A stretch of DNA of 64,000 nucleotides. Source: Pseudanabaena sp. FACHB-1998 (GTDB lineage Bacteria; Cyanobacteriota; Cyanobacteriia; Pseudanabaenales; Pseudanabaenaceae). The notes beneath the pieces are model-generated. The model made no database searches. It had not been told where the DNA came from and was given only the letters and a program-made list of their open reading frames with translations. The translations under genes and the position numbers were made by a program. Below, in pieces: positions 19,554 to 56,343 of the stretch. The stretch's first letter is position 1. Each line of letters opens with the position of its first letter. The stretch spans positions 1 to 64,000 of the forward strand of contig NZ_JACJQA010000033.1 of assembly GCF_014696355.1 (NCBI RefSeq). Reading direction: 5' to 3'.

Positions 19554-20651
19554 CTACCGAAAACCTTTGCCCTGTGAAGATTCTGTCCAAATCATGATTT
19601 CTCCATCGGCATTAGCTGCCGCGAGCTTTTTACCCTGTGGTTGCCATTGCAAACCTGTAATCTCACCCATCGGAGTCTCCAGAGCTTGCACCCAATCCTT
19701 CGCATTTTTCCAAATAGCGATTCTGCCATTTTCATCAGCAGAAGCGAGGATTTCCGTTTTGGGCTTAAAGCTGATAAATCCTACAATACTGTTATGCCCC
19801 TTAATCACCTCTCCTTCCCAACCAACATTTAAGTCAGGATGCTTTTCCCAAACCACGACATCGGAAGCACTAGAAGAAGCGAGTAATGGAGAAGTCTTAC
19901 TAGCCGACCAATCAAAGTTGCGAATCTTGCCCGGAAATCCCTGCATCCGCCAAGGCGAAGCATCAAAGTCATTACCGAGCCATTGCATCACCACCACCAG
20001 ATTATCGAGAGTACTTGCCACTAGATATTCACCTGAATGATTCCATGCAATTTTTGCTGTCGCTGTAGGCATTTCAAAAACAATCGGATCTTCGTACCAG
20101 TCCTTTGCTTCCCAAACCTTAAGCCCACCATCACCGCCGACGCATAGGTATTCGCCACTGGGATGCCATGCGATCGCCAAGACAGTCGATTGCTCAAAAT
20201 GCAAAGTGGTCACAATATCTAAAGTTTCTGCACTCCAGATCTGCACATATTTCCCTAAGCCAAAGGCAAATTCAGAACGGGTGGGATGCCAAATCAGATG
20301 CTCGATCCATGTTTTACCCAGATCGAGGGTGGCGGCGATCGCTGGTTGTTCTTCTGCTAAGTCCCAGACGCGCACTTTGCCATCTTGCCCCCCTGTCGCC
20401 AACCAACGCCCATCTGCCGAAAATCCTAAGCAGTCTACGGAGATTTCCGTGGGTGCTTGCAATTCCGTTTGCTTTTGAGCCAGATTATTCCCCGCCTTGG
20501 TATCGTCAAATAGCACTATTTCCCCTGAAGCTGTAGCTGCCGCCAGATATTTGCTATTGGGTGACCATGCGATCACCGTAATGTATTCGCTTAGGGTGAT
20601 TTGGGCTTGGGGTTTGGGATTAAGGATGGGAAGGGTCTTAGGCTTTGGCAT
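19554..20651 (-). CDS. WD40 repeat protein (single beta-propeller)
   Basis: A 365-residue protein composed of WD40 units, for example 'ITVIAWSPNSKYLAAATASG', 'VDCLGFSADGRWLATGGQDG then KVRVWDL', 'LAIAWHPSGEYLCVGGDGG' and 'GFISFKPKTEILASADENGR'. I count about seven blades, enough for one closed propeller. There is no signal peptide, ATPase or kinase domain. It resembles free-standing cyanobacterial WD40 scaffolds; partners are unknown. The next gene upstream on this strand is the PIN gene, more than 70 nt away, with a solo ACAGCGCTTTGTG motif between them. Confidence 0.85.
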   Translation of the reverse strand: MPKPKTLPILNPKPQAQITLSEYITVIAWSPNSKYLAAATASGEIVLFDDTKAGNNLAQKQTELQAPTEISVDCLGFSADGRWLATGGQDGKVRVWDLAEEQPAIAATLDLGKTWIEHLIWHPTRSEFAFGLGKYVQIWSAETLDIVTTLHFEQSTVLAIAWHPSGEYLCVGGDGGLKVWEAKDWYEDPIVFEMPTATAKIAWNHSGEYLVASTLDNLVVVMQWLGNDFDASPWRMQGFPGKIRNFDWSASKTSPLLASSSASDVVVWEKHPDLNVGWEGEVIKGHNSIVGFISFKPKTEILASADENGRIAIWKNAKDWVQALETPMGEITGLQWQPQGKKLAAANADGEIMIWTESSQGKGFR

Positions 20652-20723
20652 AGTGGTTATTATTTTTGCTCACTAAGCATCTTATCTCAGTATCGCGGTA
20701 GGCTCTTACAGCGCTTTGTGAAC

Positions 20724-21212
20724 TTATGATTTTGGGCTGAGTTCTGGACAGAGAAAGTGAAGGTTAACACCGTGATCTTTAAGGGCTTGCTCATAGTTGC
20801 GCCAGTCGGAGTCAACGGCATTAGCGATCGCGGGTTGGGCTGGATGGGTGATGGCAACGGCAACAAATTTGCGATCGGACTTGTCAAAATTTTTAAGCGA
20901 TTCTGAATCTGGGAATTCTACAAATTCATTTTCTGATATTTGTGTAATTGTCACTTGTTCACAACGGCTAGTGGCTTGATGATCCCAAACCCATTTTAAA
21001 AAAGCATCACCACTATTAGGTTGACCACTCATAGAGTTTTTGTTCATATATTCGCTAATAATAAGTCGATTACTATCAATTACGAGAGTCCCTGATTTTT
21101 GGATAGTTTCGAGATATTCGATACAAGTGAGTACGCAGGTTAGAGATGCTTGAGGTGCTTTTCTACTAGCAACAAGTAGAACATTGGTATCTACGATGTG
21201 ATGCATTCTCAC
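20724..21212 (-). CDS. PIN-domain nuclease-like protein partnered with the DUF3696 ATPase
   Basis: About 160 residues with a PIN-type acidic constellation: 'HHIVDTNVLLVASRKAP' (first Asp), 'LVIDSNRLIISEYMNKN' (Asp/Glu), 'LKNFDKSDRKFVAVAIT' (third acidic pair) and 'ANAVDSDWRNYEQALKDHGV' (fourth). PIN domains are Mg-dependent RNases or DNases, often toxins. A GTG (21210-21212) overlaps the TGA of the upstream ATPase gene, and an ATG is two codons further in; either way the two are translationally coupled. I infer that the ATPase controls this nuclease. It is larger than VapC-type toxins (about 130 residues) and has a C-terminal extension. Confidence 0.75.
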   Translation of the reverse strand: MRMHHIVDTNVLLVASRKAPQASLTCVLTCIEYLETIQKSGTLVIDSNRLIISEYMNKNSMSGQPNSGDAFLKWVWDHQATSRCEQVTITQISENEFVEFPDSESLKNFDKSDRKFVAVAITHPAQPAIANAVDSDWRNYEQALKDHGVNLHFLCPELSPKS

Positions 21213-22681
21213 CCTTCCGTATTCATTTGGCGCTTGATAGCTGCTTTGTTCATTGCAACTATATCTCCCATTTCATCACCAAAGAATCCTTCGGGATAGT
21301 TGCAAATATTGCCATAATCATCAATATCGAGAGTAACTAATTCTGAATCTCCCTGATCGTTCATTTTACAAAAATAAAGTGCAGCATCTTCATTCGTAAA
21401 TCCATCTTTTTCTTCAGCCATACGCCTTTGCAATCGCCTTAATAAATGTTCGCTATGGCTTTCGATGATGATTTGAATATTGCGGGTTTTGATGACTTCG
21501 ATAAATATATCAGCGAGTCCTGCTTGAACTGATGGATGTAAATGGATTTCGGGTTGCTCAAATATGAGGGTTGCACCTTTGGGTGCGTAGTAGCATAAAA
21601 CTAATATTGGTAATACTTGCGAAACTCCAAATCCAACATCAGTAATTAGTACTTCTGCCGAATTAGGGGTCTTCTGTACCAATATTTCATAATCACCACG
21701 ATTAGTCGTAATTTTATTTACTCGAAACCCATGTATTAAGCCTAAATCTTTTAATGCTTTTGCAACAGAAAGCTCAACATCCAAGTTTTTCTTCCGAGAT
21801 GCAAGAATTGCAGCAACTGTTAATTCCCCATATTTTCCGACATCCTTGGGACTCTCTCCAGACCATTGATAGGTTCTTTTAGGATATTCCCTCAAAGGTG
21901 CGAGATAGTAAGTATTTTGAAATAAATCGATAAAAGCTCCCATTAACTCTGACAAGTCAGTATTATTTAAAACACCAAAATTCTTTAATATTTTGGCACT
22001 ATCTATTTCTTCAATATTGTAAAATATATCATCTAAATATTCTACTGAATCTTTCCATTCATCAAAAAAAGTTCCATCTTTACTCAGTAAGTAATCTTGA
22101 TTGTTATCATTAATATTCAATCTTCTAACTTTGATTTGATTCCAACCGCAATCTCCGTCTATGGAATAGCCAGAGTCTAAATAACGATCAACAATAAAGT
22201 AGTAAGTAAAAAATTCAAAATTGATTTGATCTTGTTCAATATTAATTAATGACTCAAATTTCAAAGATTTATCGTATTGCTGATTCACAAAATACATTAG
22301 TGGTTTGTTATCATGCTTTGATTTTTGTGATTTTAGTGCATTAATGGTTTGAATTGATACGGCAATAGGTATCTGTAACATTGATATATCAATATATTTA
22401 GGAATCCATTCAAACTGAAATTTCAACTTTTCAGGTAATTGATGTCTGTGACTAATATCGTAATTAGTACCTAAATCAACATAGCTATATTGATCGCCGC
22501 CTAAATGCAAAATACGATTGCGATCGCTTGATTCCACAGTTTGCTTAAGCATCAACAAAAACTGCAAAATTGCCGTTTTCCCAGAACTATTCGTACCAAA
22601 AAATCCCGTCAGAGGAGCCATCCTAAACTCACCCGTATCAGCCCATGACTTAAAATTTTGAATGCGTAATTTTGTAAACAT
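21209..22681 (-). CDS. AAA/ABC-type ATPase with DUF3696 domain (OLD-like)
   Basis: A 490-residue ATPase. The N terminus 'MFTKLRIQNFKSWADTGEFR' with Walker A 'GTNSSGKTAILQFLL' at about 30-44 is the RecF/OLD/AAA_15 style. A middle insertion of about 250 residues follows. Then come 'VLITDVGFGVSQVLPILVLC' (signature-like), Walker B 'GATLIFEQPEIHLHPSVQAG' and the H-loop 'IIIESHSEHLLRRLQRRMAE'. DUF3696 is at the end ('YPEGFFGDEMGDIVAMNKAA'). Related two-gene arrangements (OLD-like ATPase plus nuclease) make up several anti-phage systems, so a sensing or defence role with the coupled PIN protein is a reasonable inference. The middle is AT-rich compared with its neighbours, which suggests transfer. 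Confidence 0.88.
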   Translation of the reverse strand: MFTKLRIQNFKSWADTGEFRMAPLTGFFGTNSSGKTAILQFLLMLKQTVESSDRNRILHLGGDQYSYVDLGTNYDISHRHQLPEKLKFQFEWIPKYIDISMLQIPIAVSIQTINALKSQKSKHDNKPLMYFVNQQYDKSLKFESLINIEQDQINFEFFTYYFIVDRYLDSGYSIDGDCGWNQIKVRRLNINDNNQDYLLSKDGTFFDEWKDSVEYLDDIFYNIEEIDSAKILKNFGVLNNTDLSELMGAFIDLFQNTYYLAPLREYPKRTYQWSGESPKDVGKYGELTVAAILASRKKNLDVELSVAKALKDLGLIHGFRVNKITTNRGDYEILVQKTPNSAEVLITDVGFGVSQVLPILVLCYYAPKGATLIFEQPEIHLHPSVQAGLADIFIEVIKTRNIQIIIESHSEHLLRRLQRRMAEEKDGFTNEDAALYFCKMNDQGDSELVTLDIDDYGNICNYPEGFFGDEMGDIVAMNKAAIKRQMNTEG

Positions 22682-22745
22682 CGCGAGTTAAACCTAGTTA
22701 AAAACTACAAAGGATAGGCGAAGTTCACCTATCCTACCAAAACCC

Positions 22746-22786
22746 AATAAAAAATAAGCTGCACTTCGTGCAGCTTATTTTTTATT
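22746..22786. repeat. Hairpin, 19-bp perfect arms, TTC loop
   Basis: AATAAAAAATAAGCTGCAC-TTC-complement. The right arm ends on the stop codon of the leftward ABC1 kinase gene, with T/A runs at the base. It probably works as its terminator. Confidence 0.85.
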
Positions 22787-24756
22787 TACCAACTGCGACC
22801 ATTGACCGATCGCCTTAAACCAGAACCACTAGAAGCACCCACTAATTCCCTTTCTGGATTATTGAGATTATTAGCTATTTCCTGAACCTGATCAGCTTTT
22901 TTATCCGCTTGATATTTTTTCTCATCACGCAATAGCACTTCCCGCATTGCCCTAATTAGCGATCGCTGAGCTAACTTAGAGACCACATCACGACCGATGG
23001 TAAAAGTCTCGCGCTTCGTGAGAATACGGGTTGCGAGAGGCAAAATCTCATTAGGGGCGATCGCCTTATCCTTTTGCAAGATATTCCAGAGCCTCGCAAT
23101 ATAGCCCAAACTCGAAGGCGTTTCTGTTTGAGCAATCTCTTCTTTTAACCGTGGATCGATGACAATATCGCCAATGAGGGAAGTCTTGAGAGGCGCAGGT
23201 AAGCGCTTGCTCGCTTCCACTTCAATCCCCTTCACGATTTCATCGATAATGCGATCGTGCATAAATTCACTGCGCTCTGATAGCAAGAAATCGATCCCTT
23301 TATCGAGAGTTCCATTCAAGTTATAGTCAGGATTAGTTTGAGCATTGCTCAAGAGATTTTCTAGACGATTCCAACGGAATTCTCCATCACGGAAGAGTAA
23401 ATCCTTAAGCGCCATTCTTAATTCAGGAGCCGAGTCATTCAGCAAGCGATTGGCTACATAGGGATAGGCAACGGCTAAGACTTTGAACTTCGGATCGACA
23501 CTAAAGGCAATTCCTTCGAGAGTAACAAGCGATCGGATAATCAGCGCATAGTAGGCGGGAACTTGGAAAGGATAGTCATACATGATCTGCGATAGTTGAT
23601 CGGTCATGTCTTTAAAATCCATTTGAGTTAAGCTCTGCCCGTCAGGCGGATTAAATACATCCGATAAAGCAGGCACGATCGCCGCAAAATCAATGTCTTC
23701 AGTCAAGAATCCTAAGCGCACATAATCCTTAGACAGAGCGTCAAAATCACGATTGACCAGATGCACGATCGCCTCAATTAGTCCAAATCTTTGTTCTGCC
23801 GAAACTTCGCTCATCATTCCAAAGTCTAGATAGGCTAATCTGCCATCTCCCATCACCAATAAATTTCCGGGATGGGGATCAGCGTGAAAATAGCCATAGT
23901 CTAATAATTGGCGCAAAGAACATTGCACACCGACTTCAATAATGTGGCGACTATCAAATCCCGCTTCTTTGACCTTTTCCACATTGGTGAGCTTAATCCC
24001 TTCAATCCATTCCATTGTTAAAACACGCTTTGCGGTGTATTGCCAATAGATTTTGGGAACGTAAATTCCGTCTAAGCCTCCATAGTATTTAGCGAATTTC
24101 TCAGCGTTCTTACCTTCAAAGGTATAGTCCATTTCCTCAAAAATGCGACTGGCGAATTCGTCGAGAATGGCGGCTAAATTAGTGCGGACGAATTTAAAAG
24201 TCTTTTTCAGCCACGTAGCAATGCCCCGTAAAATATACATATCAAGGGCAATGCCTGCGGCGATGTCTGGACGTTGGACTTTAATAGCTACAAGTTCACC
24301 AGTTTTCAATTTGCCCTTGTAAACTTGCCCCAGAGAAGCGGCGGCGATCGGATTTTCCGATATTTCCGCATAGACTTCTGACGGATCGGCTCCTAGGGCA
24401 TCACGAATAAATTGAAAGGCGATCTCGTTGGGAAACGCAGGTAATTGATCCTGTAATTCCGCCAGTTCATCCATGAATACTGGCGGCACGATGTCTGGAC
24501 GAGTAGAAAGGGCTTGTCCTATTTTGATAAATGCGGGTCCAAGACGGGTTACTAGTTCCCGTGATTCGATCGCTAATTTTTTTAATTCTGCGGCTGAGGA
24601 TTTGGCACTGAGGCGCAATCTCAGAAATAGCCAAATCAGTGGTACGAAAATCACTACACAACGCCACCAGACCCGCAAAGGTTGGTTACGATAGTAGTCA
24701 GCGATCGCCTCAATGTCATAACGATCTAACTCAAAGTCTGATTTGGGGTTAGACAT
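22786..24756 (-). CDS. ABC1/UbiB family atypical kinase
   Basis: A 656-residue protein of the ABC1 (AarF/UbiB/ADCK) family. The family-specific 'KxGQ' region reads 'LVTRLGPAFIKIGQALSTRP'. The A-rich ATP loop is 'PIAAASLGQVYKGKLKTGE' with 'LVAIKVQRP' carrying the lysine, and the catalytic region is 'FHADPHPGNLLVMGDGRLAY' followed by 'LDFGMM' (DFG). A hydrophobic stretch at about 30-50 lies before the kinase domain. Cyanobacteria carry several ABC1 kinases tied to prenyl-quinone and tocopherol metabolism and stress acclimation; which one this is cannot be told. The C-terminal 200 residues are helical and end in a low-complexity tail. Confidence 0.9.
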   Translation of the reverse strand: MSNPKSDFELDRYDIEAIADYYRNQPLRVWWRCVVIFVPLIWLFLRLRLSAKSSAAELKKLAIESRELVTRLGPAFIKIGQALSTRPDIVPPVFMDELAELQDQLPAFPNEIAFQFIRDALGADPSEVYAEISENPIAAASLGQVYKGKLKTGELVAIKVQRPDIAAGIALDMYILRGIATWLKKTFKFVRTNLAAILDEFASRIFEEMDYTFEGKNAEKFAKYYGGLDGIYVPKIYWQYTAKRVLTMEWIEGIKLTNVEKVKEAGFDSRHIIEVGVQCSLRQLLDYGYFHADPHPGNLLVMGDGRLAYLDFGMMSEVSAEQRFGLIEAIVHLVNRDFDALSKDYVRLGFLTEDIDFAAIVPALSDVFNPPDGQSLTQMDFKDMTDQLSQIMYDYPFQVPAYYALIIRSLVTLEGIAFSVDPKFKVLAVAYPYVANRLLNDSAPELRMALKDLLFRDGEFRWNRLENLLSNAQTNPDYNLNGTLDKGIDFLLSERSEFMHDRIIDEIVKGIEVEASKRLPAPLKTSLIGDIVIDPRLKEEIAQTETPSSLGYIARLWNILQKDKAIAPNEILPLATRILTKRETFTIGRDVVSKLAQRSLIRAMREVLLRDEKKYQADKKADQVQEIANNLNNPERELVGASSGSGLRRSVNGRSW

Positions 24757-47100: not shown

Positions 47101-47211
47101 TTTTGTCTATATTTCTTTTTTGTTTACAAGCTGTCCATATATAGCAAGTATATAAAGATAGCGATCGCCACAGCCGACATAACCATAGCAAAGCTTATTA
47201 AGTTATAAAAA

Positions 47212-47241
47212 TTGACTTTATGAGATCTACTTTGTTATAAT
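47212..47241 (+). promoter_or_regulatory. Promoter of the rpsL operon
   Basis: TTGACT (47212-47217), 18-bp spacer, TATAAT (47236-47241), about 50 bp before the rpsL ATG. It is the best sigma-70 match in the spacer between tpiA and rpsL. Confidence 0.75.
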
Positions 47242-47292
47242 TATGTGCTGTTGATTAGAATACACAGCCGCAGATATACCAAATCATCACTT

Positions 47293-47706
47293 ATGCCCAC
47301 GATCCAACAGCTCATCCGCAGTGAGCGCCAAACCATAAACACAAAAACAAAATCTCCTGCCCTAAAAAGTTGTCCTCAACGCAGGGGAGTATGTACGCGC
47401 GTCTACACTACAACACCCAAAAAGCCTAACTCGGCACTTAGAAAAGTTGCCCGCGTACGCTTGACTTCTGGATTTGAAGTCACCGCATACATCCCTGGAA
47501 TTGGGCATAACCTCCAAGAACACTCCGTTGTGATGATTAGAGGCGGTCGTGTAAAAGATTTACCAGGTGTGCGTTATCACATTATCCGTGGAACACTCGA
47601 TACTTCGGGCGTAAAGGATCGTAAGCAAGGACGCTCTAAGTATGGTGCGAAGCGACCCAAGCCCGGTCAAGCCCCAGCCGCAAGCACTGGCAAGAAGAAA
47701 AAGTAA
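47293..47706 (+). CDS. rpsL: 30S ribosomal protein S12
   Basis: 137 residues from the ATG at 47293 ([20 protein letters not shown]). The universal S12 blocks are complete: '[20 protein letters not shown]', '[20 protein letters not shown]' (streptomycin region, PKKPNSA), '[20 protein letters not shown]' and '[18 protein letters not shown]'. S12 monitors codon-anticodon pairing in the decoding centre. Lysine 43 is in the native [10 protein letters not shown] longer reading from 47245 is open but lacks family support. First gene of the str operon; rpsG follows after 70 nt. Confidence 0.96.
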
Positions 47707-47776
47707 AAGCCAGTAATTAATTTATCCATTTAAGTAAAATTAGCAATTCATTTTATAAGGTGAATTTAGTACCGTA

Positions 47777-48247
47777 ATGTCCCGTAGAACGAAAGCGTCA
47801 AAACGCATAACTCCCCCTGACTCGGTTTATAACAGCCGCCTCATTAGTATGTTGATCCGTCGTGTAATGTCACGCGGTAAGCACTCTGTAGCTTCTCACA
47901 TTGTTTACAAGGCTCTTGACACCATCGGCGAACGCACAGGCAACCCACCTCTAGAAGTATTTGACCGCGCCATTCGCAATGCGACTCCCCTAGTTGAAGT
48001 CAAGGCTCGTCGTGTTGGTGGTGCTACTTACCAAGTACCGATGGAAGTTCGCACCGATCGCGGTGTAGCTCTAGCTCTTCGCTGGTTAGTCCAATATTCC
48101 CGCGCTCGTGCGGGACGTAGCATGGTAACAAAGTTGGCTAACGAACTAATGGATGCCGCCAATGAAACTGGTCAAACCATCCGTAAACGTGAAGAAACCC
48201 ACAAAATGGCAGAAGCAAACAAAGCCTTTGCCCACTACCGTTACTAA
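47777..48247 (+). CDS. rpsG: 30S ribosomal protein S7
   Basis: 156 residues: '[20 protein letters not shown]', '[20 protein letters not shown]', '[20 protein letters not shown]', '[20 protein letters not shown]' and the C-terminal '[20 protein letters not shown] then AFAHYRY'. S7 nucleates assembly of the 16S 3' domain and lines the E site. Canonical length and start. Second gene of the operon, with fusA starting 79 nt downstream. In many bacteria S7 also represses this operon's translation; no such binding site is obvious here. Confidence 0.96.
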
Positions 48248-48326
48248 GGTTATTAAACCGTAGCTTACCTCGCTATACTATTCTTAATATAAATTCTCAA
48301 TTCCTGATAAACCCGAGGAAACTTTT

Positions 48327-50408
48327 GTGGAACGCACTATTGCCTTAGATAAGGTACGCAATATAGGTATTGCGGCGCACATTGACGCTGGTAAGACCAC
48401 AACTACAGAGCGTATCCTGTTTTATTCTGGCGTTGTTCACAAAATCGGTGAAGTCCACGATGGGACAGCAACGACAGATTGGATGGCGCAAGAACGTGAA
48501 CGTGGGATCACGATTACTGCTGCTGCAATCAGTACCAGTTGGAAAGACCATCGCATTAACATTATCGACACTCCAGGACACGTAGACTTCACCATTGAAG
48601 TAGAACGTTCCATGCGTGTTCTTGATGGTGTAGTTGCAGTTTTCTGTGCTGTCGGTGGCGTTCAGCCTCAGTCAGAAACTGTATGGAGACAAGCCGATCG
48701 CTATAAAGTACCCCGTCTCGTATTCGTCAATAAAATGGATCGCATGGGTGCAAACTTTTTGCGAGTAAGAGAACAGATCCGTGCTCGCTTTGGTTCTAAC
48801 GCAGTCCCCATCCAACTCCCCATAGGTAGTGAAGCCGAGTTAGTTGGCATTATTGATCTCGTCAAAATGAAAGCCTTCATCTACAAAGATGAAATAGGCA
48901 AGGATATTGAGGAAGTAGATATTCCCGATGATTTATCTGACTTAGCTAACGATTGGCGTGCCAAGCTGCTTGAATCTGTTGCAGATTCTGATGATGTTTT
49001 AATGGAAAAATATCTTGAAGGTGAAGAACTCACCGAAGATGAAGTTAAAACGGGGCTACGTAAAGGAACCTTAAGTGGTTCGATCGTACCAATGACTTGC
49101 GGTTCAGCATTCAAAAACAAAGGCGTACAACTCTTATTAGATGCGGTTATCGATTATCTTCCTGCTCCAAGCGATGTTAAACCAGTCCAAGGTTTACTAG
49201 CTAATGGTGAGGAAGCAATTCGTGAAGCAAAGGATGATCAACCAATGTCGGCGCTTGCCTTCAAGATCATGTCCGATCCTTATGGTCGTCTCACCTTTGT
49301 GCGCGTTTACTCTGGAATCTTGAAGAAGGGTTCCTACGCCCTCAATCCTGTCAAAAACAAGAAAGAGCGAATCTCTCGCTTGATTATTTTGAAAGCTGAC
49401 GATCGCCAAGAAGTTGACGAGCTAAGAGCAGGAGATCTAGGCGCGGTTCTAGGACTCAAGGATACATTCACAGGTGATACTCTTTGTGATATTGACTCAC
49501 CAATTGTGCTTGAGACCCTATTTATTCCTGAGCCTGTAATTTCCGTAGCTGTTGAGCCAAAAACGAAACAGGATATGGAAAAATTATCCAAGGCTCTCCA
49601 ATCTCTATCTGAAGAAGATCCTACCTTCCGTGTAGCAACTGATTCAGAAACTAATCAGACGATTATCTCTGGTATGGGAGAACTTCACCTTGAAATTCTC
49701 GTTGACCGGATGAAGCGTGAGTTTAATGTTGAAGCTAACGTGGGTGCACCTCAAGTAGCTTATCGTGAAACTATTCGCAAGACTGTCACCGACATTGAAG
49801 GTAAGTTTGCTCGCCAGAGTGGTGGTAAAGGTCAGTATGGTCACGTTGTGATCAACTTAGAACCTACTGAGGCAGGAACAGGCTTTGAATTCGTATCGAA
49901 GATCGTTGGAGGTGTTATTCCTAAGGAATTCATCAAACCTTCGGAGCAAGGTATGAAAGAAGCCTGTGAATCAGGAATTCTGGCAGGTTATCCTCTCATT
50001 GACGTGAGAGCAACCCTCGTACATGGTTCTTTCCATGACGTGGACTCTTCAGAAATGGCTTTCAAAATTGCTGGCTCTATGGCAATCAAAGAGGCTGTAA
50101 TGAGAGCTAATCCTGTTTTACTTGAACCCGTAATGAAGGTTGAAGTAGAAACTCCTGAGGACTACATGGGTGATGTTATTGGTGACCTCAGCCGTCGTCG
50201 TGGCAACATTGCAGGTATGGATGATACTGCTTCTGGTAAGAAGATTGAATCAAGGGTTCCTTTGTCGGAAATGTTTGGCTATTCTACTGACCTGCGCTCG
50301 TCAACTCAGGGTAGGGCAAGCTTCTCAATGGAATTTAGCCATTATGAAGAAGTACCTAAGAATGTGGCTGAAGCCATCATTGCCAAAAACAAGGGCAAAA
50401 AAGAGTAG
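48327..50408 (+). CDS. fusA: Elongation factor G
   Basis: 693 residues. Starts with GTG (48327-48329) preceded by GAGGAAA. G1 '[20 protein letters not shown]', G2 '[12 protein letters not shown]', G3 '[20 protein letters not shown]', G4 '[13 protein letters not shown]', domain II-V blocks '[18 protein letters not shown]', '[20 protein letters not shown]' and the C-terminal '[20 protein letters not shown]'. EF-G translocates tRNA-mRNA on the ribosome and helps recycling. Cyanobacteria may carry a second EF-G gene elsewhere. Third gene of the str operon; tuf follows after 106 nt. Confidence 0.97.
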
Positions 50409-50514
50409 TCCTTTAAAATACTCAACCAATACTCTATAAACTAGAGTAATAATTACCGAAAATGCTCTACACCTTAGAGTAACAATTACTAAATTTAAGG
50501 ATAATTACGAAAAA

Positions 50515-51747
50515 ATGGCACGCGCTAAATTTGAGAGAGACAAACCCCACGTTAATATCGGTACTATTGGTCACGTTGACCATGGTAAGACTACTCTAAC
50601 TGCTGCAATCACCATGTCTCTTGCAGCCGCAGGTCAAGCAACTGCTAAGGCGTACGATCAAATCGATGCTGCACCTGAAGAGAAGGCTCGCGGTATTACC
50701 ATCAATACTGCTCACGTTGAATATCAAACAACTCAGCGTCACTATGCTCACGTAGACTGTCCTGGTCACGCTGACTATGTTAAGAACATGATCACTGGGG
50801 CAGCACAAATGGATGGTGCTATCCTCCTTGTTTCTGCGGCTGATGGTCCCGAACCTCAAACTCGCGAACATATTCTTCTTGCTCGTCAGGTTGGTGTGCC
50901 TCAACTGGTAGTTTTCTTGAACAAAGAAGACCAAATGGAAGGTGAAGATGAGCTAGTTGAGCTAGTTGAACTTGAAGTTCGTGAATTGCTCTCTTCCTAC
51001 GACTTTGATGGCGACAATATTCCCATCACCCGTGGTTCTGCTTTGAAAGCAGTTGAGCAAATGACTTCCAGTCCTAAAACCCAACGTGGTGAAAATCCTT
51101 GGGTTGATAAGATTTGGGATTTGATGGATTCCGTTGACTCCTACATTCCTACTCCTGAGCGTGCCGTCGATAAAGACTTCTTGATGGCAGTAGAAGATGT
51201 ATTCTCCATTACTGGTCGTGGTACTGTTGCTACTGGTCGGATTGAGCGTGGCACTGTCAAGGTTGGCGATGTTGTTGAACTAGTTGGACTTGGTGATACT
51301 CGTACCACCACCGTTACTGGTATCGAAATGTTTAAGAAGAGCTTAGATGTTGGTCTGGCTGGTGACAACGCAGGTTTACTGTTGCGTGGTATCCAAAAGG
51401 ATCAAATTGAGCGCGGTATGGTACTAGCTAAGCCTAAGTCCATCAATCCTCATACTGAGTTTGAAGGACAAGTATACATTTTGACCGAAAAAGAAGGTGG
51501 TCGTAAGACTCCTTTCTTCCCTGGCTACCGTCCTCAGTTCTATGTTCGTACAACTGATGTAACTGGAACCATTGCTAGCTTCACTGCCGATGATGGTAGC
51601 GATGCAGAAATGGTTATGCCTGGCGATCGCATCAAGATGACTGTAGAGTTGATTAACCCCATCGCGATCGAAAACGAAATGCGTTTTGCTATTCGTGAAG
51701 GTGGTCGTACCGTTGGATCGGGCGTTGTAACTAAGATCATCAAATAG
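50515..51747 (+). CDS. tuf: Elongation factor Tu
   Basis: 410 residues: '[20 protein letters not shown]' with G1 '[20 protein letters not shown]', G2 '[17 protein letters not shown]', G3 '[20 protein letters not shown]', G4 '[16 protein letters not shown]', and the C-terminal domains '[20 protein letters not shown]', '[20 protein letters not shown]', ending '[13 protein letters not shown]'. It delivers aminoacyl-tRNA to the ribosome. The insertion after G4 ('[20 protein letters not shown]') is the cyanobacterial/chloroplast form. Last gene of the operon; a strong terminator starts 18 nt after its stop. Confidence 0.97.
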
Positions 51748-53120: not shown

Positions 53121-53177
53121 AAATATTAGCTAAGGGAGTAGCAGTGCCAAGCACGGCTACTCCCTTAGCTAATATTT
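53121..53177. repeat. Hairpin, 22-bp perfect arms, 13-base tip
   Basis: AAATATTAGCTAAGGGAGTA (start of left arm) pairs exactly with 53156-53177; the inner part GTGC-CAA-GCAC forms its own tip. The right end reaches the stop of the PP2C-WD40 gene. GGGAGTAGC here matches the flanks of the extended hairpin subclass. Confidence 0.83.
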
Positions 53178-56100
53178 AGGATGGAGGTGTAGATTTGAGA
53201 TATTTGTACAACCAGCCACATCCTCCTAAACAAGTGCGCTTATCTTCTTCGGAAACATTAATGTTAGTTCGTAAATATTCTTGTAACCATTGACAGCCGC
53301 GCATTAATAAATTTTCTAAATCGAGATTCCACATGATGATTTTGCGATCTTCACCCGTGGAAACTAAGATTTTGCCATTTGGACTAAAGCAGACACTTCT
53401 TACAGGACCTTGATGACCATTAAAAGTTCGTAATAACGTACCGTCACCACTCCAAAATTGAATTGTGGAATCTTCGCTAGCTGAAACGATAGATTTACCA
53501 TCGGGGCTAAAACAAACGCTAGTTACTTCGGCGCTGTGACCGTTTAAGGTTTTGATCAATTGACCATCAATACTCCAAAGTTTTACGCTTTGATCCATAC
53601 TGCCACTGGCAATCATCATGCCATTAGGGTTAAAACAAACCGTATAAACCTCAGCACTATGTCCGTCTAAAGTGCCAAGTAGGTTACCATCCCAACTCCA
53701 AAGGTTGATTAATTTATCTTTGCTAGCCGACGCTAACATGCTGCCATCGGGACTAAAATCGATACTATAGACTTCAGCAGCATGTCCTGTTAGGGTTTGT
53801 AACCATTTGCCATCAGCACTCCAGACTCGCACAGTGCCATCAGCACTACAAGATGCAAATACTTGTCCATCGCAACGGTAAACAACTTTATAAATTTCTG
53901 CACGATGGGCGCTGATAGTCTCAATGAGAGAACCATCAGTACGCCACATTTTGATACTAGCATCGGCTCCTGCTGTCAAAATTGTAGAACTGTCAGGGCT
54001 GAACGTAACACAGTTAACTTTGTCATTATGCCCTTCTAAAACAGCTTCCAGAGTACCGTTAGGATTCCAGAGATTTACAGTCTTATCCTTACAAGATGAG
54101 GCAAGGAATTTTGAATTAGGGCTAACTGCTACGGAGAAAATTTCATCTGTATGCCCCATTAAAGTTCGTAGGGGTGTGCCTCTAATTGACCAAAGTTTTA
54201 CGGTAGTATCACGACTGGCGGACGCAAGATTTTTGCCATCGGGACTAAAGGCAATACTATGAACCACATCTCCATGTCCTTGAAAGGTATAGAGTAAGCC
54301 CTGTTCAATGTCCCAGACGCGAATGGAGCGATCAAATCCACTAGAGGCAATGGTGTGATTATCGTGGCTAAAGGCGACACTCCAAACCTTATCGGAATGA
54401 CCATAAAAAGTTTTAATTAAAACTCCATCGGAACCCCACATTTTGACAGTGCGATCGCGGCTACCTGAAACGATCGCTAAGCCATTAGGTGCATAGGCAA
54501 CACTTTCGACAAAACTATCATGCCCGCGCAGATGTCTGATAGGTACACCAAGGGTATTCCAAATAATTAAATTGCGATCGGCACTGCCTGAAACTAGGGA
54601 CTTACTATTAGGGTGAAAAGAAACGCAGGTCACCCAGCGATCGTGTCCTCCGCGCAAAGTGCGAATTGCCGTACCATCACTTTTCCATAGTTTAACCGTC
54701 GTATCCTCACTCGCAGAAGCGATCATTTCTCCGTCATGGCTAAAGCAAACATCTAGCACGGGTCCATCATGACCTTTGAGGGTAGCGCTCGGTTGAGAGT
54801 CAAAGGTATCGGTCGAGGAGTTGCGCCTCCAGAGTTTGATCATGTTGTCGCGGCTACCTGACACGAGCAAATTACCATCGGGGCTAAAAGCGACGCTAGT
54901 TACCCAGTTGGTATGCCCTACTAAGGTTTGGAGTAATACACCTGAAGCATTCCATATTTTGATTGTGCGATCGCTACTAGCCGAGGCAATAAATTGACCA
55001 TCGCGGGAATAGCTAACTTTGTTAACCCAGAATCCATGACCTTCGAGACGGTTATATTCATGAGTGCCGTAAACTACTTGTTCCAGTGCGGTAATAGCCC
55101 GAATTTGCGTATTAGCTCGAAGATTTTCTAAAGTAGTAGCATCAACTTGGGTAGTAAGGCGCTTGAGCTGGACTCCGCCGATTACGCCTGCAATCATCGC
55201 CTCTAAATGATTATTAGAAAGGTAGAGAGCTTCGGAGGAAATTGTAAGGGCGACAATTTTTTCATTGATTTCGCCCATCTCGGCGATCACTCGTTGGCGG
55301 CGCTCAGAATCAAGACTTTTTTCTAGTTCCTGACTCAACTTTTCGAGGCGATCGGCATCGGCAGCGCGAGCTGCCATGAGCTGCTCACGTTCATTAACCC
55401 TTTGGGATGCGTCTAAAAAGTTGAGATCAATTCTTGATAAGTCTGGCTGCCCTTCGGCCCAAGCTAAGGCTTCGGCTAAACGAGTCCCACGTAGCAAACA
55501 AGATTCGTCACTTTCTTCCGATCGCTCCCATGCTTGTAAGGCTTCAAGATAGGGACAGTTGCGGATCTCGGAGAAAACAACTTTTTGTTTGACTTTGATT
55601 ACAACTATAGAAACATCATCGTCAGGGATGTCCGAGCCAGAAAATTCATCTAGAGCTTTCTTTAATCCCTGTAAAATTTCGATTGCGGATTGCTCAGCTA
55701 ATTGGATGACGATTTTACGCAAGTCGGAAATATCATCACCATTGGAACGCCCAAATTCTTCGCCAAGGGAATTACTAGCTTCAAATAATCCATCGCTAAA
55801 AAATATGACTACGTCCCCTTCCTTCAGAGAACGTGAGGTTGCTCGGTATGTGGCACTATCAAAACGTCCCAAAGCGATCGCAGGATTAACCACCTCTTCA
55901 CAACTATTGGTCTCATCACGATAAATCAAAGGACCAGGAATACCTGCATTACCTAAATGTAGTTCATAGGTAACGAGATCGAGCGCTCCATAGCAAAGTG
56001 CAACCGCATCATCAGTACGACTTTTGCACAATAACTGATTTAGGGAATTAAGCATGGAAGCAGGATTTTGCAATCTGCCCTGTTGAGCATAGGCATCCAG

Positions 56101-56343
56101 TTGTCCTTTAAATAAAGCAGCATGAATAGCTCCAGCAACAGACTTGCCTGAAGAGTCGGCGATCGCCACTGCCAAAGTTCCTGACTGCTCCAGAAACTGG
56201 TAATAATCTCCGCCAAGATCTACCGCCGTCCAAACTTCCGCAGCAATATCTAGCCCAGGGTAAGAAGGCAAGCTTTGTGGCAATAAGCTTCTTTGCAGCA
56301 ATCTGCCACTTGAAAGGTCACTGGAAGTTTCAATTAACTGCAT
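53176..56343 (-). CDS. SpoIIE/PP2C phosphatase fused to STAND-type linker and 14 WD40 repeats
   Basis: A 1055-residue chimera. Residues 1-245 are a SpoIIE-type PP2C: 'LLPQSLPSYPGLDIAAEVWT', 'VDLGGDYYQFLEQSGTLAVA', 'IADSSGKSVAGAIHAALFKG', 'EGDVVIFFSDGLFEASNSLG' and 'DIPDDDVSIVVIKVK', with the metal Asp/Gly residues present. A helical linker (about 255-430) has 'YLEALQAWERSEESDESCLL', 'DASQRVNEREQLMAARAADA', the type that joins STAND ATPases to WD40 domains. Fourteen WD40 units follow (GH...D/N...W pattern), enough for two propellers. The tail 'LENLLMRGCQWLQEYLRTNI' is the usual end of cyanobacterial STAND-WD40 proteins. The ATPase itself is absent. It likely dephosphorylates an anti-sigma-antagonist-like partner in response to a WD40-bound signal. 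Confidence 0.88.
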   Translation of the reverse strand: MQLIETSSDLSSGRLLQRSLLPQSLPSYPGLDIAAEVWTAVDLGGDYYQFLEQSGTLAVAIADSSGKSVAGAIHAALFKGQLDAYAQQGRLQNPASMLNSLNQLLCKSRTDDAVALCYGALDLVTYELHLGNAGIPGPLIYRDETNSCEEVVNPAIALGRFDSATYRATSRSLKEGDVVIFFSDGLFEASNSLGEEFGRSNGDDISDLRKIVIQLAEQSAIEILQGLKKALDEFSGSDIPDDDVSIVVIKVKQKVVFSEIRNCPYLEALQAWERSEESDESCLLRGTRLAEALAWAEGQPDLSRIDLNFLDASQRVNEREQLMAARAADADRLEKLSQELEKSLDSERRQRVIAEMGEINEKIVALTISSEALYLSNNHLEAMIAGVIGGVQLKRLTTQVDATTLENLRANTQIRAITALEQVVYGTHEYNRLEGHGFWVNKVSYSRDGQFIASASSDRTIKIWNASGVLLQTLVGHTNWVTSVAFSPDGNLLVSGSRDNMIKLWRRNSSTDTFDSQPSATLKGHDGPVLDVCFSHDGEMIASASEDTTVKLWKSDGTAIRTLRGGHDRWVTCVSFHPNSKSLVSGSADRNLIIWNTLGVPIRHLRGHDSFVESVAYAPNGLAIVSGSRDRTVKMWGSDGVLIKTFYGHSDKVWSVAFSHDNHTIASSGFDRSIRVWDIEQGLLYTFQGHGDVVHSIAFSPDGKNLASASRDTTVKLWSIRGTPLRTLMGHTDEIFSVAVSPNSKFLASSCKDKTVNLWNPNGTLEAVLEGHNDKVNCVTFSPDSSTILTAGADASIKMWRTDGSLIETISAHRAEIYKVVYRCDGQVFASCSADGTVRVWSADGKWLQTLTGHAAEVYSIDFSPDGSMLASASKDKLINLWSWDGNLLGTLDGHSAEVYTVCFNPNGMMIASGSMDQSVKLWSIDGQLIKTLNGHSAEVTSVCFSPDGKSIVSASEDSTIQFWSGDGTLLRTFNGHQGPVRSVCFSPNGKILVSTGEDRKIIMWNLDLENLLMRGCQWLQEYLRTNINVSEEDKRTCLGGCGWLYKYLKSTPPS

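Follow-up and report, generated by a model that had tools for sequence, protein, structure and literature searches.

In PARIS, an ABC ATPase (AriA) holds a nuclease effector, AriB, of the TOPRIM (DUF4435) type, and AriB cleaves tRNA under this ATPase (PMC12409363). Septu and retron-Eco7 likewise combine an ABC ATPase, PtuA, with a small nuclease gene, in this case for the HNH protein PtuB, which also cleaves tRNA under its ABC ATPase (PMC13096335). Gabija has a different composition, in which GajA carries a TOPRIM domain and GajB is a helicase. To our knowledge, the triggers of defences built from an ABC ATPase and a nuclease are mostly unknown.

Of the same kind as the locus considered here are pairs of OLD-ABC ATPases and PIN endoRNases, described as backup effectors in BREX neighbourhoods in an account that makes no mention of an RNA ligase (PMC12839542). 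The Hma-embedded candidates (HECs) are a further source of such systems, and several of them, including HEC-06, are reported to protect against phage. One of these candidates, HEC-03, reportedly originates from the Payne et al. 2024 preprint on Hma-embedded candidates. No phage test of HEC-03 was found in the literature searched, a search whose scope did not extend to that preprint.

Identity of the ATPase and PIN nuclease pair

The window, a 64,000-nucleotide stretch of the genome of Pseudanabaena sp. FACHB-1998, encodes an ATPase and a small partner protein with the following features:

21209-22681, (-): HEC-03B, SMC/Rad50-type ABC ATPase with a DUF3696 tail, 490 aa (PADLOC, Pfam, AF2 model)
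22574-22597, (-): Walker A motif GTNSSGKT, residues 29-36 (from the sequence; core residues invariant in the alignment)
21533-21562, (-): Walker B / EQPEIHLHP motif, residues 374-383 (invariant in the alignment)
21260-21394, (-): DUF3696 region, residues 430-474 (Pfam PF12476, 1.2e-11)
20724-21212, (-): HEC-03A, predicted PIN-fold nuclease, 162 aa from a GTG codon or 160 aa from the ATG at 21206 (PADLOC, AF2, fold match, conserved acidic residues)

Both reading frames are present as described in the original prediction, which had proposed a mobile defence module and named PADLOC as a place to look for it. When the models of PADLOC-DB 2.0.0 are applied, both proteins match HEC-03 over nearly their full length, the ATPase as HEC-03B (PDLC04148, E 1.8e-121, aligned over 1-488) and its partner as HEC-03A (PDLC04147, E 1.6e-35, aligned over 3-159), and the two genes are adjacent and co-directional, as HEC-03 requires. 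The pair is an already catalogued defence candidate, and the locus adds one copy to HEC-03. The ATPase also matches NsnB of Menshen (NsnABC) at 2.2e-59, but far less well than it matches HEC-03B; NsnB is the only Menshen gene among the window families listed (best 25 of 33), and the two-gene layout differs from that of Menshen.

The assignment of the larger protein to the AAA_15-type ATPases, with the Walker A motif and a DUF3696 tail, is borne out by Pfam (AAA_15 at 1.9e-24, the DUF3696 match given above, and also AAA_21). In structural comparisons the ATPase head matches SMC and Rad50, with OLD, PtuA, GajA and AriA also among the matches, and the AF2 model is reliable in the two conserved halves but not in the middle, where pLDDT is about 30-50. 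The original prediction likened the pair to Gabija, Septu and PARIS, and the general likeness stands, in that an ATPase and a nuclease form a defence candidate. The pair is none of these three systems, however, since its partner nuclease has a different fold. For instance, AriA is among both the profile and the fold matches of the ATPase, but the window ATPase is of a different family, with DUF3696, and its partner is a PIN protein where AriB is a TOPRIM effector and PtuB an HNH nuclease. Similarly, the ATPase ends in DUF3696 without the TOPRIM domain of GajA, and has the PIN protein in place of the GajB helicase.

The evidence for the PIN fold is structural. A Pfam search with the partner protein gave no match, and in a few family members the Pfam PIN models reached an E-value of just 0.04-0.19, too weak to dispense with a comparison of folds. 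The protein has no sequence relatives among solved structures. An AlphaFold model built with 20 homologues as input has a pLDDT of 93.6, and its closest structural match is the toxin VapC21 (Z 10.4, rmsd 2.8 over 123 residues). The top rows of the comparison are mostly PIN proteins, including other VapC toxins and FitB, with HARP and Nob1 lower. Foldseek by itself returned weak E-values for the model, so the assignment depends on this second structural alignment and on the active site. The PIN-like set of acidic residues that had been read from the letters is borne out: among the 20 homologues D8, E54 and D113 never vary and D134 hardly does, all at the positions expected of PIN proteins, and these residues are kept across phyla. 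A PIN fold, on which the original prediction depended, is thus predicted for the partner with high confidence. In one relative (L012, G012 C202:14795), the C-terminus of the PIN gene is altered and extended, giving a protein of 211 aa whose alignment ends at residue 139, possibly through a frameshift.

The two frames share the GTGA at 21209-21212, as was claimed, but this overlap may go unused. In two other genomes of the genus, G025 and G004, the GTG is changed to GTA, leaving as the sole remaining start the ATG 6 nucleotides downstream; the corresponding ATG at 21206 in the window has a Shine-Dalgarno sequence, AAGGG, that is better spaced than it is for the GTG. From these two observations, translation of the PIN gene probably starts at the ATG at 21206, 2 nucleotides past the ATPase stop codon, rather than within the 4-bp overlap.

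Distribution and exchange of the pair

The surroundings of the pair are described by three further features:

19554-20651, (-): flanking beta-propeller (WD40-like) gene, 365 aa, present in 26 of 26 genus genomes; family probable, named from sequence
22786-24756, (-): flanking kinase-like gene (AarF/ABC1 type by reading), present in 26 of 26 genus genomes
20671-22781, no strand: segment missing from the sister genomes G013 and G008, whose copies of the two neighbour genes are separated by 53-55 bp (empty site)

The propeller gene, being present throughout the genus, served as the vertical marker. The distribution of the pair is not that of a strictly vertical housekeeping unit of all cyanobacteria, an outcome that would have spoken against the original prediction: an intact PIN gene occurs in 11 of the 26 genus genomes, the gene was found in 19 of 388 class genomes, and one of the two genomes with an empty site (G013) has its pair at another location. 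In a comparison of the window with G023, dS is 1.06 for the neighbouring propeller gene and 0.09 for the PIN gene. The trees disagree as well: in the marker tree the window falls outside a clade formed by G002, G020, G021, G023 and G025, whereas the PIN tree groups it, fully supported, with G023 and G025, a grouping that the AU test rejects on the marker (p 0.014). Patchiness, empty sites, the difference in dS and the conflict between trees together imply that the pair moves between genomes, and it has been exchanged horizontally as a unit and is no housekeeping element. In all genome loci tested an ATPase gene adjoins the PIN gene, usually overlapping it or at most 20 nucleotides away; in two loci (L022 and L036) the adjacent ATPase frame is broken.

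The transfer that had been proposed is supported by these lines of evidence and not by base composition or by HIP1 sites, on which the proposal was founded. Counting the gap in HIP1 sites at 20824-22520, the window has 4 gaps that reach 1696 bp or more, where 4.7 would be expected at random, and HIP1 depletion was accordingly dropped as a sign of transfer. The largest HIP1-free gap of the window lies elsewhere, at 47161-51623 (4.46 kb), and the proteins inside it have no PADLOC match.

Beyond the cyanobacteria, a cross-phylum search found homologues in proteobacterial, verrucomicrobial, planctomycete, nitrospiral and archaeal genomes. Homologues also occur on 12 plasmids, 6 of them conjugative; one conjugative plasmid, from Aeromonas, has AbiEii and Hok genes in the vicinity. 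Carriage by phages was not seen, as there was no match in viral contigs (searched with short patterns) or in phage records at the sensitivity used. On an Acinetobacter soli plasmid (CP119202.1, 162601-179053; L134), the pair stands amid helicase, N6-methylase, HNH and DUF262 genes, and the ATPase is annotated as two overlapping pieces.

Whether such pairs lie in defence islands has a divided answer. Relatives are found in BREX loci, two of them (L020 and L021) adjoining BrxC, PglX, BrxHI and PglZ genes, and on plasmids; two more (L019 and L030) have a gene layout that resembles that of the BREX-linked pair. The window site, in contrast, is not island-like: no defence island was seen around the pair, whose neighbours are housekeeping-like. 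The window copy thus differs from HEC-03 in its Hma and BREX settings, and from the BREX-associated OLD-ABC and PIN pairs in being free-standing. Further along the window, a 1055-aa protein at 53176-56343 (-) gives a partial PADLOC match to HEAT-ARM_XIII (6.8e-52); it is probably a HEAT-repeat protein, and the match does not point to defence.

Remains of HEC-03 genes were seen at other sites. The genome of the window also holds the degraded C-terminal half of another PIN gene, unaccompanied by an ATPase (C23:225882-226169; L015, L097). This remnant is 92% identical to the PIN gene of G011 and 72% to that of the window, so the genome probably once carried a second HEC-03 from a different lineage. 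In four other genomes, the HEC-03 ATPase gene is reduced to a stub of its first ~146 bp (L093-L096; G002 C1:1827176, G021 C1:4715361, G019 C53:27171 and G007 C12:13624). The stub precedes another two-gene unit, of a 371-aa ATPase (best PADLOC match PDC-M25A, 3e-25) and a 179-aa protein, which adjoins Fic and isochorismate-synthase-like genes; G004, G016 and G018 have HEC-03 at this place. The arrangement looks like the replacement of one defence pair by another at a hotspot.

A variable central block in the ATPase

Two nested features lie in the centre of the ATPase gene:

21677-22444, (-): exchangeable central cassette, about residues 80-335, edges approximate (identity drop, site patterns, AU tests)
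21962-22399, (-): hypervariable core of the cassette, residues 95-240, containing the lowest GC of the window (aa identity; GC 0.257)

Across eleven genus genomes, ATPase residues 1-75 and 330-488 are 90-100% identical, and residues 95-240 are mostly 16-40% identical. At the nucleotide level the window and G023 share 92-98% identity outside, and 38-68% inside, a region at about 22440-21720. A further comparison involves G023 and two other genomes. G023 and G025 are near-identical in the propeller gene (99.3%) and in the PIN gene (98.6%), and their ATPase genes are 96-97% identical in the flanks, but just 42% in the cassette core. Conversely, G023 and G004, which belongs to another species, share 97% identity in the cassette core, with 86-89% in the flanks and about 76% in the PIN genes; synonymous divergence between them falls from 0.61-0.87 in the flanks to 0.08 in the middle. 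This pattern of identities rules out simple divergence of the middle. Between block types, synonymous sites of the middle are near saturation.

Informative sites divide 79:7 in the flanks versus 8:321 in the middle (Fisher p 1e-66, a descriptive value, as neighbouring sites are not independent). With groups chosen after the identities had been seen, the AU test rejects the grouping of the middle on the flanks (p 3e-5) and the grouping of the flanks on the middle (p 4e-15). The AU tests thus reject a single history for flanks and middle, and about residues 80-335 are swapped as one cassette between related strains, leaving the flanks nearly unchanged. Grouped at about 50% aa identity, the eleven genomes of this one genus hold nine block types, with cassettes of 134-185 codons. 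This variation in length, together with the finding of one cassette near-intact in two species, makes a diversity-generating retroelement an unlikely source, and no silent free-standing cassettes were found elsewhere in the genus.

The cassette also accounts for the AT-rich middle of the ATPase gene that had been noted earlier. The observation itself is correct, as the lowest-GC 300 bp of the window lie here (GC 0.257, against a window mean of 0.431 and SD of 0.045). However, the middle is AT-rich in every genus copy (GC 0.27-0.32), so AT-richness alone is no sign of recent transfer, and foreign origin was dropped as its explanation.

The central block is probably the part of the ATPase that recognises the invader. 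Such an arrangement would resemble that of type I restriction enzymes, whose target-recognition domains are exchanged in the manner proposed here for the HEC-03B block. Neither cassette exchange nor the RNA ligase neighbour of this family (see below) was found described in the literature searched, the HEC preprint lying outside its scope.

RNA ligase neighbours, function and rival explanations

The cross-phylum search yielded 21 loci, of which two (L017 and L031) end too soon to be informative, and a gene of an RNA ligase family (PF09414) lies directly after the PIN gene in 14 of the 19 testable loci. The order of ATPase, PIN protein and Rnl2-like RNA ligase is conserved in L018-L027, L029, L030, L032 and L033, and on the plasmids NZ_CP085535.1, NC_017966.1 and NZ_CP010420.1; for instance, the ligase of L020 matches PF09414 at 5.7e-30. 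Among plasmids, each of the eight top-scoring ligase matches is a neighbour of the PIN gene, as on the conjugative Aeromonas plasmid. Ligase-bearing relatives include a Methanolobus and an Azotobacter locus. The ligase has no PADLOC match at 1e-10. In ligase-bearing relatives the ATPase flanks are 97% and the middle 84% identical, compared with 97% and 31% here. The products of PIN nucleases generally have 3'-OH and 5'-phosphate ends, which such RNA ligases can join directly, so that the adjacent ligase suggests RNA cleavage by the PIN protein. All cyanobacterial copies are without a ligase gene, within the flanking DNA available, and repair cannot therefore belong to the mechanism here.

The interpretation we favour, at a probability of about 0.6, is that HEC-03 is an anti-phage module with a sensor block and an RNase effector. 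ATPase dimers would hold the PIN protein inactive until the central block, an insertion within that head domain of the ATPase, recognised a phage trigger; an ATP-driven rearrangement would then free or align the PIN nuclease, which would cut RNA, most likely tRNA, and halt translation before phage production. Homologous recombination within the conserved segments of the head would exchange the block, allowing a strain to change its recognition target while motor and effector stay the same. In other phyla, the third gene, for the Rnl2-like ligase, would reseal leaky or residual cuts. Of the parts of this scheme, a function in defence is the best founded, and we consider it likely: the module originally proposed is supported by the PADLOC matches, the PIN fold, the mobility of the pair and its BREX-linked relatives. 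That RNA is the target of the PIN protein is somewhat less secure, but still favoured; tRNA as that target, suggested by analogy with AriB and PtuB, is put forward tentatively. Similarly conjectural is the fuller picture of a modular immune receptor, in which the block would be swapped by way of the conserved ATPase halves, motor and PIN RNase would be near-invariant, and copies in other phyla would bring their own RNA ligase, making the damage reversible.

The resemblance of the PIN protein to VapC (Z up to 10.4), its best structural matches being VapC toxins, raises the question of a mobile toxin-antitoxin or addiction module, in which the ATPase would neutralise a VapC-like toxin and the pair would persist by addiction and not by phage defence. 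The presence of relatives near AbiEii and Hok genes on conjugative plasmids, and the stray PIN remnant left in the same genome, would fit such a module. VapBC, however, has a small VapB antitoxin, whereas the neighbours of the PIN gene in the window are a 490-aa ABC ATPase and the 365-aa propeller gene; fast exchange of the ATPase middle is also unexpected where an antitoxin need only fit a conserved toxin, and relatives lie inside BREX operons. Addiction is thus an unlikely explanation, and we consider defence that targets DNA less likely again. Here, SMC-like recognition of phage DNA structures would lead to DNA cleavage by the PIN protein, as in DNA-targeting models of Gabija, in keeping with an ATPase head whose nearest matches, SMC and Rad50, act on DNA, and which has GajA among its relatives. 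Yet most of the PIN matches are RNases (VapC, HARP, Nob1), the family of the partner ligase is one of RNA ligases, and a hypervariable block fits the sensing of a protein trigger better than generic sensing of DNA.

The ligase gene, directly downstream in most testable loci and found on plasmids too, would also suit a unit of RNA processing or repair, with nuclease and ligase engaged in housekeeping RNA maturation and the ATPase as regulator. We regard this as very improbable, as the pair is patchy, mobile and missing from most relatives, its cyanobacterial copies are without a ligase, and some of its relatives are embedded in BREX.

On the favoured reading of HEC-03 as an anti-phage module, the exchange of the cassette and the association with a ligase are the features most worth following. 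The genus provides a natural set of candidate receptors that differ chiefly in one block, and the near-identity of G023 and G025 in their other genes amounts to a ready-made block-swap experiment on specificity. The ligase-bearing relatives, in turn, make it testable whether a partner encoded alongside a defence RNase can undo its action.
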